A DNA stretch of 47,281 nt from Bacteroidota bacterium. GTDB lineage: Bacteria > Bacteroidota > Bacteroidia > B-17B0 > Aurantibacillaceae. The notes beneath the pieces are model-generated. The model was not told the DNA's origin, did no database searches, and saw only the letters and a list, made by a program, of their open reading frames with translations. Of this stretch, positions 26,248 to 32,455 are shown in pieces. The stretch covers positions 1 through 47,281 of the forward strand of contig JACPOC010000036.1 in NCBI GenBank assembly GCA_016185125.1. The letters run 5' to 3'. The first letter of the stretch is position 1; each line of letters begins with the position of its first letter. A program made the translations under genes and the position numbers.

Positions 26248-28098
<1,851 letters not shown>

Positions 28099-28099
28099 A

Positions 28100-28774
28100 A
28101 TGACACGTCTGATTGTTATAAGCAGTGAAGTTGATGTGGAGAATGAAATTTCTCTGGTGAACGAATTATTTCATCAAGGACTGGAATTATTTCATTTGAG
28201 AAAACCTCACTGGACAATTGATGATCAAAGAAGGTTTCTTCAAAAAATGGATTTTGATTTTTTATCAAAAATTTCCGTGCATCAGCATTATGAAACCGTT
28301 ATTGAATACAGCTTAAAGTATTATCATGTCAAAGAAAATGATAGAAAAATAATTTCTCTCACAGACGCGCAAAGTAATCAGCAGAATGGTACAGAGTTAA
28401 CATCCTTACAGCGAACATTGCGAAGTCTTAATAAAACTCTGCAAAACACAAAGAAAAGCACGTCCTTTCACAATTACAATGAGTTACAATTTGAAAGTAT
28501 TTTTTGGGATTATTGTTTTTTAAGTCCCGTTTTTGATAGTATTTCAAAACCCGAATACAAAAGCCACTTTAAATATGATTTTAATATCGAAGGTGATTTG
28601 AACCAACGTGTATTTGCATTAGGAGGAATAAATAAAAATAACATCGAACAGGTTTTTGAAAAGGAATTTTATGGTGCTGCCGTTTTAGGAGGCATTTGGC
28701 ACAAGCCGGAAAATGTCATCAACAATTTTAAAGAACTACAAGCACTATGCAAACAGAACGTCCATACGCACTAA
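28100..28774 (+). CDS. ThiE/TenI-like protein, degenerate active site
   Basis: A 224-residue TIM-barrel protein of the thiamine phosphate synthase/TenI superfamily, recognised from LFHLRKP (about 30-36), FLSPVFDSISK and ALGGINKNN. It lacks several residues expected of a true ThiE: the INDNxxxA strand reads VHQHYETV, and the HLGxxDM motif reads HVKENDR. The His used by TenI thiazole tautomerases is also not evident at SPVFDS. A tautomerase, regulatory or altered-substrate role is possible. The ATG at 28100 is used, since the longer frame runs into thiC. It overlaps thiD by 28 bases. Confidence 0.8.
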   Translation: MTRLIVISSEVDVENEISLVNELFHQGLELFHLRKPHWTIDDQRRFLQKMDFDFLSKISVHQHYETVIEYSLKYYHVKENDRKIISLTDAQSNQQNGTELTSLQRTLRSLNKTLQNTKKSTSFHNYNELQFESIFWDYCFLSPVFDSISKPEYKSHFKYDFNIEGDLNQRVFALGGINKNNIEQVFEKEFYGAAVLGGIWHKPENVINNFKELQALCKQNVHTH

Positions 28775-29496
28775 CGATTGCAGGATTTGATCCCTGCTCC
28801 GGTGCCGGTTTAACAGCCGATATTAAAACCTTTGAACAATTAAAGGTATACGGACTTGCTGTATGTACAGGATTAACTTTACAAACCGAAGATGAATTTG
28901 TTTCAGTTTCGTGGAGGGATGTAAAAGAAGTAAAAAAGGAAGTGGATTTCCTGCTTAAAAAATATCCTGTTAAAGCAGTGAAATTCGGCATTGTTCCATC
29001 ATTTACATTTTTAGAAGAGTTGGTTAATTTAATTAATGATTTGAATTCAGATATAAAAATTGTAATTGATCCAATATCAAAAGCAAGCACGGGATTTTCT
29101 TTTAATAAAAATGATCTTTTACTTAAAAATGGTTTTCTTGAAAAAATTACTCTCTTAACTCCTAATATCCCTGAACTCGAATTAATGAGCCGAGGTGAAA
29201 ATGAAAATTTATTTATAAATGAGATTTCAAGTTATTCGAATTTATTGGTTAAAGGAGGGCACAAAAGCGTAAATGTAGGGACAGATGTTTTGTACCAAAA
29301 AAACAGTACGAGTGAATTTCCATCTGATATTTTAAATGCAACTCCAAAGCATGGTTCAGGCTGTGTGTTGTCTGCCGCCATCACCGCTCATCTTGCCATG
29401 GGAAAAAATGTAAAACAATCGTGTTCTGACTCAAAAAAATATATTGAAAAATTTTTAATTTCTAACAAAAGTTTATTAGGATTTCATGCTTCATAG
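28747..29496 (+). CDS. thiD: Hydroxymethylpyrimidine/phosphomethylpyrimidine kinase ThiD
   Basis: ThiD phosphorylates HMP and HMP-phosphate to HMP pyrophosphate. The ribokinase-fold opening ALTIAGFDPCSGAGLTADIKTFE (first 30 residues) is characteristic, with Pro-Cys in place of the more usual Ser-Gly. The C-terminal anion-hole motif is KHGSGCVLSAAI. Length 249. It overlaps the preceding gene by 28 bases and thiE by 11 bases, which fits tight coupling. Confidence 0.93.
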   Translation: MQTERPYALTIAGFDPCSGAGLTADIKTFEQLKVYGLAVCTGLTLQTEDEFVSVSWRDVKEVKKEVDFLLKKYPVKAVKFGIVPSFTFLEELVNLINDLNSDIKIVIDPISKASTGFSFNKNDLLLKNGFLEKITLLTPNIPELELMSRGENENLFINEISSYSNLLVKGGHKSVNVGTDVLYQKNSTSEFPSDILNATPKHGSGCVLSAAITAHLAMGKNVKQSCSDSKKYIEKFLISNKSLLGFHAS

Positions 29497-30124
29497 ATTA
29501 CAGTACATATCGCAGGGTAATTCGCCTGAAGAGCATTTTAAAAACATTCAATCAGCATTGGATGCCGGTGTTAAACTTGTTCAGCTTCGCTTAAAAAATT
29601 TAGATGATAACAGCTATTCAGATTCAGCGTTACAAATCAAAGCACTCTGTAATAACTATAAGGCTCAACTCATTATTAATGATAATGCCACTGTAGCAAA
29701 ACACTGTGATGCTGATGCCGTTCATTTGGGATTGGATGACATGAAAGTAGAAGAGGCGAAAAAAATTCTCAAAAAAACAATTATTGGAGGAACGGCCAAT
29801 ACGTTTGATCATATACAACAAAGGCACAACGAAGGAGTGCATTATATTGGTTTAGGCCCCTATCGCTTCACAACTACAAAAGAAAAATTAAGTCCGGTTT
29901 TAGGAAGAGAAGGATACACAAGAATTATACAGCAGATGAAAGCTGAAAACATACGTATTCCTGTTTTTGCAATAGGAGGTATTGTATTGGAAGATGTAAA
30001 GGACATAATGAGCACGGGCGTATATGGAATAGCAGTATCCGGATTAATAACCCGTGCACCAGATAAAGCTAAAATGGTAAAGGAACTTCATAAAATATTA
30101 TATCATGTTAAAAATAGCGGATAA
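29486..30124 (+). CDS. thiE: Thiamine phosphate synthase ThiE
   Basis: ThiE joins HMP pyrophosphate and thiazole phosphate to make thiamine monophosphate. Active-site segments are intact: VQLRLKN (about 32-38), [25 protein letters not shown], and the phosphate loop [17 protein letters not shown] and GIAVSGLI follow. Length 212. In contrast to the ThiE-like gene upstream, it looks fully functional. It overlaps thiD by 11 and thiG by 20 bases. Confidence 0.94.
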
Positions 30125-30866
30125 AGAATTCTCATCAAGACTATTTCTTGGAACCGGAAAATACGCATCAAGCGAAGAGATGTACAATTCTATTATGGCC
30201 TCAGGTACTAACATGGTTACTGTAGCTTTAAAAAGAATTGACACAAGCGCTCCAAACGATAATATGCTTGAAGCACTTAAAAAAGCAAATGTTTTTTTGT
30301 GGCCAAATACTTCAGGCGCGCGCAATGCTAAGGAAGCTGTATTCGCAGCACAACTAGCACGCGAAGCGTTAGAAACGAATTGGATAAAATTGGAGATCCA
30401 TCCTGATCCGCGTTACTTAATGCCCGACCCAATTGAAACTTTAAAAGCAACCGAAGAATTGGCAAAACTTGGATTTGTAGTATTGCCGTATATTCATGCT
30501 GACCCAGTTTTATGTAAACGTCTAGAGGATGCAGGCACAGCAGCAGTAATGCCTTTGGGTTCGCCAATAGGAAGCAATAAAGGATTAAAGACCCAGGACT
30601 TTTTAGAGATCATTATTGAACAAAGTAATGTTCCGGTAATTGTGGATGCCGGAATTGGTTTGCCTTCGCACGCAGCATTCGCATTGGAATTAGGAGCAGA
30701 TGCCGTTTTGGTTAATACTGCTATTGCTACTGCAAACGACACAATATTAATGGCAAAAGCTTTCAAAGATGCAGTAATTGCAGGAAGAAACGCCTTTGAA
30801 GCAGGAATGGCTTCACAAAATAAATTCGCGAATGCTACTAGCCCGTTAACAGAGTTTCTCACTTAA
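30105..30866 (+). CDS. thiG: Thiazole synthase ThiG
   Basis: ThiG condenses deoxyxylulose phosphate, dehydroglycine and the ThiS thiocarboxylate to form the thiazole phosphate. [13 protein letters not shown] opens the barrel, [15 protein letters not shown] contains the Schiff-base Lys region, and the phosphate-binding [13 protein letters not shown] and AVLVNTAIA follow. Length 253, complete. In many relatives thiH follows directly; here a GxxExxY gene intervenes. Confidence 0.96.
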
Positions 30867-30871
30867 TTTTT

Positions 30872-30897
30872 CTCGCAGATGATATTGATTTCGCTGA
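30872..30897. repeat. Left end of the CTGCGA-type repeat pair
   Basis: CTCGCAGAT (30872-30880) and GATTTCGCTGA (30887-30897) are the exact reverse complements of ATCTGCGAG (31329-31337) and TCAGCGAAATC (31321-31331). The repeat begins 6 bases after the thiG stop and runs into the first codons of the GxxExxY frame. Confidence 0.75.
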
Positions 30898-30902
30898 AAA
30901 AC

Positions 30903-31310
30903 ATGATGAACGCGCAAAAAGAAACTAATGATTTGAACGAGAACGATATTTCGTACATAGTAAGAGCTGCTGTTTTTAAAGTTTATAATGCGTTAGGTAT
31001 CGGTCTCCTGAAATCAGTTTATGAAGCGGCATTGAAACATGAACTAACAAAAGAAAGTTTAGCCATCCAAAGCCAGATTGGAATACCAGTTTTTTATGAT
31101 AATACAGAACTAGGACTAGGTTTTCGTTTAGATTTACTCGTAAACAATAAAGTCATCCGGGAAATAAAATCGGTTGAAGAGCTGACACCAATTCATTATA
31201 AACAATTACTTACCTACTTAAAACTTTCTAACAGAAAACTTGGCTTGTTAATCAACTTCAACTCCGCTGATATTTCAGACAAAATTAAAAGGGTAGAAAA
31301 CAATTTATAA
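30903..31310 (+). CDS. GxxExxY protein (PD-(D/E)XK nuclease-like), inserted in the thi operon
   Basis: A 135-residue protein of the GxxExxY family (PDDEXK_3-like). Recognisable parts are ISYIVRAAVFKVYNALGIG, the signature GLLKSVY (34-40), a RLDLLV...EIK nuclease core (Asp77, Glu87, Lys89) and the QLLTYLKL segment. The name-giving Glu is Lys37 (AAA at 31011-31013), one base from GAA. The biochemical function of the family is not established. The frame extends to an ATG at 30879, but those 8 residues are encoded by the flanking repeat; 30903 fits the family better. It separates thiG from thiH and is not a known thiamine gene. Confidence 0.88.
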   Translation: MMNAQKETNDLNENDISYIVRAAVFKVYNALGIGLLKSVYEAALKHELTKESLAIQSQIGIPVFYDNTELGLGFRLDLLVNNKVIREIKSVEELTPIHYKQLLTYLKLSNRKLGLLINFNSADISDKIKRVENNL

Positions 31311-31337
31311 TCTGCGAATATCAGCGAAATCTGCGAG
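31310..31337. repeat. Right end of the CTGCGA-type repeat pair
   Basis: Two ATCTGCGA units (31310-31317 and 31329-31336) bracket TATCAGCGAAAT. The segment from 31321 to 31337 is the inverse of the two blocks found at 30872-30897, but without the 6-base insertion present there. It lies between the GxxExxY stop and the thiH start. Confidence 0.75.
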
Positions 31338-31342
31338 CAATA

Positions 31343-32455
31343 ATGACATTCAAAAACATATTCGATAATTACAACTGGTTCAATGTGGCAAAAAACATTC
31401 ATTCCAAAACTTCAGTAGATGTAGAAGCTGCATTAGCTAAACCCCGCATTACCCTTGAAGATTTTGCCGCTTTAATTTCTCCTGCGGCTCTTCCTTATCT
31501 TGAGCAAATGGCCTTAAAAAGCCAGACTTTAACCAAACAACGTTTTGGTAAAACAATTCAAATGTTTGCTCCCATGTATTTAAGCAATGAATGCAATAAC
31601 ATTTGCACCTACTGCGGTTATAGCTTCGACAATAAAATAAAACGCAAAACATTAACGGATACAGAGATTTTAAAAGAGGTTAAGGCTATAAAAGAACTGG
31701 GATTTGATCATATTTTATTGGTAACTGGCGAAGCAAATGCTACTGTTCATGTTCCCTATTTTTTAAACGCCATTAAATTGATAAAGCCTTTTTTCTCCAA
31801 CATTTCTGTGGAGGTTCAACCTTTGGAAAAACACGAGTACGATCAACTGCATGAAGCAGGGGTATATTCTATTTTGGTATATCAGGAAACGTATAATCAG
31901 GATACTTATAAAAAAATTCACCCCAAAGGTAAAAAGTCAAACTTTTTGTATCGTCTTGAAACTCCGGATAGAGTTGGCAAAAGTAAAATTCATAAAATAG
32001 GAATTGGTGCGTTATTAGGAATTGACGATTGGAGAACAGATTCATTTTATTGCGCTTTACATTTGGATTACCTTCAAAAAAAATATTGGCAAACAAAATA
32101 TTCAGTTTCTTTTCCCAGAATACGACCGGCAGAAGGCGTTGATTTATCTCATGAGCACATTTCCGACAAAGAATTATTGCAACTAATTTGCGCATATCGC
32201 ATATTTAATCCGGATGTTGAGCTTTCTATTTCAACACGCGAAACCCCTCACTTCCGTGATAACATTATTAAACTCGGAGCCACTTCCATGAGTGCCGGAT
32301 CTAAAACTAATCCGGGTGGGTATTCTGTGGATTTGGAATCATTGGAACAATTTGAGATTGATGATACACGTACACCCGAAGAATTTATTAAAGTTATTGC
32401 AAAGCAAGGATATGAAGCGGTGATGAAAGACTGGGATAATGCATTTACAAATTGA
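31343..32455 (+). CDS. thiH: 2-iminoacetate synthase ThiH
   Basis: ThiH is a radical SAM tyrosine lyase that supplies dehydroglycine for ThiG. The cluster motif CNNICTYC (Cys84, Cys88, Cys91) is present, followed by LVTGEANATV and SVEVQPLEKHEY motifs. Length 370, normal. Presence of ThiH and not a ThiO-type oxidase indicates the tyrosine-dependent route. The stop overlaps the upstream part of thiF. Confidence 0.96.
   Translation: MTFKNIFDNYNWFNVAKNIHSKTSVDVEAALAKPRITLEDFAALISPAALPYLEQMALKSQTLTKQRFGKTIQMFAPMYLSNECNNICTYCGYSFDNKIKRKTLTDTEILKEVKAIKELGFDHILLVTGEANATVHVPYFLNAIKLIKPFFSNISVEVQPLEKHEYDQLHEAGVYSILVYQETYNQDTYKKIHPKGKKSNFLYRLETPDRVGKSKIHKIGIGALLGIDDWRTDSFYCALHLDYLQKKYWQTKYSVSFPRIRPAEGVDLSHEHISDKELLQLICAYRIFNPDVELSISTRETPHFRDNIIKLGATSMSAGSKTNPGGYSVDLESLEQFEIDDTRTPEEFIKVIAKQGYEAVMKDWDNAFTN

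Follow-up and report, generated by a model that had tools for sequence, protein, structure and literature searches.

GxxExxY nuclease genes between inverted arrays of phased words: a probable REPtron-like mobile cassette in a Bacteroidota thiamine operon

TIRtrons have repeats that differ from gene to gene and REPtrons consist of a RAYT (TnpAREP) gene with REP and REPIN repeats (PMC3733652 for both, PMC8266576 for REPtrons). Intervening sequences of the 23S rRNA that come with an IVP protein have terminal inverted repeats that are cut by RNase III (PMC4990558). Among 5.39 million openly licensed PMC papers, the name GxxExxY occurs in only two: PMC8934634 gives it in passing beside a CRISPR-type reverse transcriptase, and the other is PMC12085832. 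No report of GxxExxY with flanking repeats was among the matches listed for the titles and abstract starts of the openly licensed PMC literature (most subscription papers and preprints lie outside this collection); in the same literature there was no mention of PDDEXK_3 as sole term, and the exact word strings described below had two matches, both unrelated by title. The association of GxxExxY genes with inverted word arrays is real, widespread and, as far as the literature was searched, undescribed.

GxxExxY cassettes share with REPtrons and TIRtrons a small gene between inverted repeats, dispersed gene-less doublets and the covariation of repeat and protein, and with the IVP/S23 (PF05635) systems the location, within a transcribed unit, of a short gene bounded by inverted repeats. 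In contrast to REPtrons, the gene encodes a predicted PD-(D/E)XK nuclease and not an HUH Y1 transposase, the ends are arrays of words spaced by 8-10 bp and not single GTAG-tagged palindromes, and there is a strong placement inside operons just past stop codons. The IVP protein, a four-helix bundle, is unrelated to GxxExxY, and IVP arms have a 7-bp period and no CRCNRAK word pair in both flanks.

The locus that started this study lies in a thiamine operon within the window, the whole stretch of 47,281 nucleotides from a Bacteroidota bacterium that was analysed. Its features are:

30105..30866, plus strand: thiG, upstream host gene, intact, named by context
30872..30899, plus strand: left arm, a degraded ~9-bp word array, CTCGCAGAT GATATTGAT TTCGCTGAA
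30903..31310, plus strand: GxxExxY / PDDEXK_3 gene, 135 amino acids, ORF open from 30879
31310..31337, minus strand: right arm, inverted word array
31343..32455, plus strand: thiH, downstream host gene, intact (TIGR02351)

The downstream gene is ThiH (TIGR02351, E 1.2e-161). The upstream ORF, which no NCBIfam model matched above its cut-off, is called thiG from its position in the thi operon and from reading of the sequence; its homologues (64-94% identity) lie near thiH in 24 of 30 loci from relatives. As judged from the sequence, two thiamine-phosphate-synthase-like frames (28058-28774 and 29486-30124) flank a thiD-like gene and belong to the same thi operon. The ORF in the gap (30879-31310) has 143 amino acids, or 135 when counted from the ATG at 30903, and scores above the curated cut-offs of both family profiles: PF13366 (E 7.9e-39, 133.1 bits with a cut-off of 22) and TIGR04256 GxxExxY (E 2.6e-38, 131 bits with a cut-off of 35). 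This bears out a previous sequence-only reading, which had proposed a 135-residue GxxExxY gene between thiG and thiH.

The same reading had described the left repeat blocks as exact inverse copies of blocks on the right, and this holds: CTCGCAGAT (30872-30880) and GATTTCGCTGA (30887-30897) both have exact inverse copies within 31310-31337, with lengths of 9 and 11 bases. In 5000 shuffles of the intergenic segments (30867-30912 and 31308-31342), a longest inverted block of at least 11 bases occurred in nine and the summed length of the two longest blocks was matched in one. When 200-bp flanks are scored by gapped alignment, the window taken by itself lacks significance (12 of 100 shuffles score as well), and its left array is degraded. 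The arrays are built from a ~9-bp word, NNCGCAGAT, and the right arm, read reversed, is CTCGCAGAT TTCGCTGAT ATTCGCAGAT; the 6-base rearrangement proposed between the arms is accounted for by the register of this ~9-bp word. The left arm starts 5 bp past the thiG stop and the right arm ends 5 bp short of the thiH start. The flanking genes are intact, as proposed. The thiG stop and the ATG at 30903 are 36 bp apart, the GxxExxY stop and thiH 32 bp, where 33-36 bases had been given. With its position between thiG and thiH the insert is outside the 23S rRNA, and its protein is PF13366 and not S23/IVP. PF13366 is the sole match, so that there is no HUH Y1 transposase between the repeats, and the arms have neither a GTAG tag nor the form of GTAG-tagged single palindromes; what resembles a REPtron is the organisation, a gene between inverted repeats together with dispersed gene-less doublets.

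Stand-alone GxxExxY proteins have about 125-145 amino acids, and we know of no assigned function for them. The D, E and K of the PD-(D/E)XK core are present in all 177 aligned GxxExxY proteins, including the window protein, where they are D85, E95 and K97 in the 143-residue numbering; in the 135-residue numbering they are Asp77, Glu87 and Lys89, exactly as had been suggested. The G-x-x-E-x-x-Y motif itself is broken in the window protein and reads GLLKSVY, a point that the sequence-only reading had overlooked: the Glu is kept in 176 of the 177 proteins and the Lys is found in the window copy alone. As only one protein of 177 has K for E, the window copy is, judged by its residues, probably old and inactive, a relic. 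By the full profile it nevertheless belongs to the family, and we read it as a degenerate member. The alignment left out 18 of 195 ORFs that had an internal stop or were shorter than 105 amino acids as called; seven of the internal stops are at residues 0-2 and are an artefact of start choice.

The predicted structure of the window protein (pLDDT 93.6, pTM 0.83) has its best solved match in SSO0001, which we take to be a Cas4-type nuclease (Z 10.0, 3.3 A over 100 residues; Foldseek E 2.8e-4). The archaeal Holliday-junction resolvase Hjc is also among the matches, with a Z of 7.2 that is in the range of common arrangements; matches with Z under 8 were not taken as kinship. GxxExxY is thus predicted to be a PD-(D/E)XK nuclease similar to Cas4, RecB and lambda exonuclease; in the last of these, the metal site includes a helix Glu that may be comparable. 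In difference to these enzymes of similar predicted fold, GxxExxY proteins are stand-alone and come with inverted word arrays. Sequence searches found no solved homologue of the window protein at E<=1, and a profile of nine sequences had one match among solved structures, with an E of 0.033. The Cas4 profile weakly matched the relatives L111 (E 0.0059) and L054 (E 0.0012) and did not match the window protein. The latter has no cysteine at all and therefore lacks a Cas4-type cysteine cluster; such a cluster is typical of Cas4.

GxxExxY loci were collected from the family of the window, from named genome records of several phyla and from 60 further places, hand-chosen among the matches listed with a preference for multi-copy genomes. 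The named records are the best 80 of 574 matches, which skews them towards near relatives of the query; most are Bacteroidota, and the 80 include records named Bacteroidota, Acidobacteria, Pirellula, Cyanobacteria and a Methanosarcinales archaeon, and many are metagenome bins. In the family of the window, at least 67 of 87 genomes have GxxExxY matches. The flanks (200 bp, 100 shuffles per locus, p<=0.01 meaning that no shuffle was as good) have a significant inverted repeat spanning the gene at 70 of 109 GxxExxY loci, mostly Bacteroidota with some other phyla, but at only 2 of 134 of the longest neighbour ORFs that served as control. This is the outcome that the sequence-only reading had expected from other GxxExxY loci; the remaining 39 loci have no inverted repeat at this threshold, and two of 111 loci with short flanks as well as duplicate genes were excluded. 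In a thinned set of dissimilar proteins, 68 of 116 loci have inverted arms and 28 have matches in direct orientation; the latter would fit a left arm that is itself a small hairpin. The shuffles, mismatched left-right pairs and the neighbour genes rule out that the repeats of the window and the family are a chance or low-complexity artefact.

The repeated word differs from locus to locus (CGCAAAG, CGCAGAT, CACAGAG and others) with CRCNRAK as common form, and successive words are spaced by 8, 9 or 10 bp in 98, 164 and 83 cases, respectively. The suggestion that the repeats are of a general CTGCGA type was therefore not borne out, as the word varies widely between loci. Word pairs in both flanks are present at 71 of 168 GxxExxY loci and at none of 34 IVP and 22 Y1 loci. 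The median length of a cassette is 524 bp (102 loci). The genome of the window has three GxxExxY genes, each with inverted arms (by eye) and with its own word: CGCAGAT, CACATAG or CACGAAT.

The left and right words of a locus resemble each other: their word similarity is 0.50 within a locus (n=146) and 0.10 between loci. Similar proteins at unrelated sites also tend to share words, and the words tend to travel with the protein lineage. Over the 120 of 165 loci with a repeated in-grammar word (the other 45 were dropped), the mean cosine similarity of words in non-homologous contexts is 0.06-0.08 below 50% protein identity (0.08 at 30-50%), 0.19 at 50-60%, 0.39 at 60-70%, 0.46 at 70-80% and 0.67 above 80% (n=5); as contexts were compared over 0.7-1.5 kb of flank only, some homologous contexts were probably missed. 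Pairs with homologous context but only 30-40% protein identity have a similarity of 0.04 (n=23). Pairs from one genome have a similarity of 0.06 if their proteins are less than 40% identical (n=38) and of 0.50 if identity exceeds 60% (n=5); three of these five pairs are those of the trio in genome G057 described below (0.80-0.88) and the other two share no word (0.00). The Mantel correlation between proteins and words is 0.326, and none of 999 permutations reached it. Exceptions, such as L187 and L188 with 73% identical proteins in one genome but the words CACGGAG and CACTAAG, suggest that words drift fast. In 20 non-overlapping pairs of loci at homologous sites, 15 columns had changed alike on both arms while about one is expected under independence, a count biased upward because the arms were picked by their similarity; 71 columns had changed on one arm, and 16 on both arms but differently. 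Gene and arms behave as one evolving unit.

Arms are also present around IVP genes. Of 34 loci where an IVP gene (PF05635) sits in a protein operon, 18 have significant inverted arms, and the period of IVP arms is strictly 7 bp (lags 7, 14 and 21; 19 loci). Such IVP genes are those of L012-L014, L075-L104 and L029; the words of their arms take forms such as AAGTATC, TTAGTNT and GAGTCGT and are mostly found just past stop codons. The genome of the window has four IVP genes with inverted arms by eye; L012-L014 passed the formal test and L011 did not.

Genome G057 has three GxxExxY paralogues (L200, L202 and L203; 77-79% identity) that occupy unrelated sites, have CGCAGAT arms and share a leader; the reading frame of L203 looks interrupted close to the start codon end. 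In G056 only 2 bp separate the two neighbour genes of the L203 site, and in G055 these genes overlap. The neighbours of the L202 site overlap in G051 and in G052, two genomes that are near-identical here, and in G055 a gene-less inverted doublet of 71 bp lies between them. Elsewhere in the genus the corresponding gaps are longer and without words by eye (L360-L363), and in L367-L369 and L372 the left neighbour was not found. The neighbour genes of G057 are 54-69% identical to those of the four other genomes, too diverged for placing the joint or a target-site duplication, and loss as well as gain is possible at both sites. At the L202 site of G057 (L365), the left arm and the apparent 3' end of the upstream gene occur jointly in about three tandem copies.

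Inverted gene-less arrays are dispersed in genomes with GxxExxY. The genome of the window has 83 tandem in-grammar word pairs, but only 16 of the reversed pattern, and neighbouring pairs within 150 bp are arranged as +- in ten cases, -- in four, ++ in one and -+ in none. Four near-copies of one gene-less element (L316, L317, L318 and L320) with CACNAAT words at the centre are found in this genome; such elements are like MITEs in being inverted and without a gene, while the ends of GxxExxY cassettes, in contrast to MITEs, are not one fixed sequence across loci. Summed over 41 genomes, there are 348 word triples and 4 of the reversed pattern, and 23 of the 41 genomes have any; the maximum is 71, in G013 of the same genus, which has 4 GxxExxY genes among the matches listed. 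In 25 genomes of the genus, the number of word triples follows the number of GxxExxY genes (Spearman 0.745), but also genome size (0.72) and the number of Y1_Tnp genes (0.67); given genome size, the partial correlation is 0.46 for GxxExxY and 0.46 for Y1. GxxExxY counts themselves also follow genome size. We therefore rejected the notion that word number depends on GxxExxY number alone, since genome size confounds the relation.

Cassettes are placed with the direction of the host operon. Among 119 two-arm cassettes, 84 lie between genes that are co-directional with GxxExxY and 5 between two genes of the opposite strand; 12 and 8 are in mixed settings and 10 were left unassigned (neighbour genes were called mechanically as ORFs). 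The median start of the left arm is 6 bp past the upstream stop codon, and 63 of 94 left arms start at 0-20 bp. Without the Flavobacterium thi set (see below), the numbers are 67 co-directional and 5 antisense with 49 of 77 left arms near a stop, and for the named loci alone they are 33 and 3 with 28 of 40. IVP loci are placed likewise: 17 of 19 are co-directional and 13 of 18 near a stop. This orientation could reflect survivorship instead of targeting.

Could the gene be a resident of the thi operon with a conserved role there, and the repeats be regulatory? We regard this as very improbable. In its favour, GxxExxY is frequent in the gap: of 24 thiG-thiH gaps read in the family (6 of 30 thiH loci were dropped with thiG out of reach), 8 contain GxxExxY, namely the window and seven relatives, and in the genus of G107, where 22 of 150 genomes hold one GxxExxY lineage (E<=1e-40), 19 of the 22 loci are at thiG-thiH. 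We take this genus to be Flavobacterium, because the protein of one member shares 98% identity with its counterpart in the Flavobacterium record L111. A GxxExxY gene always in this gap, which the sequence-only reading would have held against a mobile cassette, is thus what a part of the relatives have, but not all: six gaps are clean (0-7 bp), the kind of empty site that it had named as support, five contain gene-less inverted words (by eye), two are short (43-45 bp, one with a single arm), and one each has an internally deleted GxxExxY remnant (L018), an IVP gene (L029:2645-3004) and a Y1 gene (L040). Only 8 of 170 collected GxxExxY loci adjoin thiG or thiH. The thi-site proteins are also rejected as one clade, and with this a single inherited insertion: p-AU is 0.0007 for 17 thi-site proteins in a tree of 37, 0.0017 for the nine of the window's family and, as a weaker rejection, 0.014 for the three of its genus, with the family and genus sets chosen after inspection of the tree and L001 on a long branch; the starred branches of the tree alone force only one or two changes at the thi site. 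From gap contents, the Flavobacterium loci and the clade rejection, the gap was probably settled more than once and also inherited over long spans, and the window cassette is not a fresh insertion. Another site, shared by L137, L139, L153, L162 and L170, has likewise kept its cassette over a genus or longer; with several sites held for so long, movement must be rare.

It is unlikely that another enzyme, for example a RAYT/Y1 transposase, is what spreads the word arrays, with GxxExxY as a chance passenger between two of them. Arrays do outnumber GxxExxY genes in several genomes, Y1_Tnp counts follow word counts also given GxxExxY (0.47), genome G025 has 10 word triples and no GxxExxY among the matches listed, a word pair lies on at least one side of 2 of 22 Y1 loci, and it is a Y1 gene that occupies the L040 gap. 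However, the genome of the window has its excess of word pairs with no Y1_Tnp at E<=0.001, none of the 22 Y1 loci has the word pair in both flanks that 71 of 168 GxxExxY loci have, and the words follow the GxxExxY lineage. Significant inverted repeats are present at 7 of the 22 Y1 loci and their sequence is of another kind (8 of 30 Y1 loci had no clear ORF and were left out). A RAYT as mover was rejected on the missing Y1_Tnp and the missing two-flank word pairs. Equally doubtful is an action of the arms in RNA, by which they would pair around the frame in the operon mRNA and be cut, for example by RNase III, so that the insert is trimmed out. The co-directional placement inside operons would suit this, arm identity reaches 58 of 61 aligned columns (L111), and the IVP family, which is that of the 23S rRNA intervening sequences cut by RNase III (PMC4990558), shares the placement. 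Yet a plain stem needs no word grammar with fixed spacing, and arm mismatches that are G.U-compatible on the coding strand are no more common than those of the A.C kind (133 and 139, p 0.76). With no wobble bias of the coding strand, the tie between the arms looks DNA-borne, and RNA pairing as sole driver is rejected.

We therefore favour, with a probability of roughly 0.6, a small mobile cassette of REPtron-like type in which a PD-(D/E)XK nuclease gene lies between inverted arrays of phased words; the window has an old, probably inactive copy. That repeats and gene form a mobile unit, as the sequence-only reading had proposed, is well supported by the flanking words, the lineage-linked words, the G057 trio, the empty sites and the recurrent occupation of the thi gap; that the nuclease acts on the repeats we infer. 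The cassette works like a REPtron, and what differs are the enzyme and the type of repeat. The nuclease would bind the word arrays, or a hairpin formed by the single-stranded arms, and cut there, perhaps with several copies aligned about one helical turn apart; repair or replication would then spread copies and keep the two arms alike. Gene-less doublets would be non-autonomous derivatives. By settling past stop codons of co-directional genes, the cassette could be transcribed by the host operon with no gene broken.

More tentatively, the GxxExxY nuclease and IVP might each head a class of transposase-less, operon-dwelling cassettes with drifting ends of phased words. Many spellings would be tolerated provided that the two ends fit each other and the resident protein, the ends would change together through copying of one arm onto the other, and each family would have its own rhythm, about 9 bp for GxxExxY and 7 bp for IVP. 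If true, this would explain much of the unassigned intergenic short repeat sequence in Bacteroidota. The GxxExxY cassettes themselves point to a type of mobile DNA that has been overlooked and that takes up positions within operons. Under the favoured reading, many intergenic repeats would have an origin, REP-like spread would have a second class of enzyme in addition to the HUH transposases, and the joint drift of a protein and its target code would have a natural example; the defined partner sequence makes the GxxExxY family testable in vitro.

Y1_Tnp-like loci of relatives (L335, L339, L340, L343, L348, L350 and L351) have significant inverted repeats of other sequence, several of them palindromic and REPtron- or TIRtron-like; L350 and L351 are weak Y1_Tnp matches. 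Carriage of the cassette by phages was rejected, as the L111 protein had no match in 50,697 phage records. Of 72,556 plasmid records, 8 match the same protein; their sizes range from 24.8 kb to 1.58 Mb, and all are predicted to be non-mobilizable. Cassettes in plasmid-filed records are placed like the others: one between fabD and fabG has the left array only, and both arms are visible in those behind radA and behind an adenine deaminase gene.
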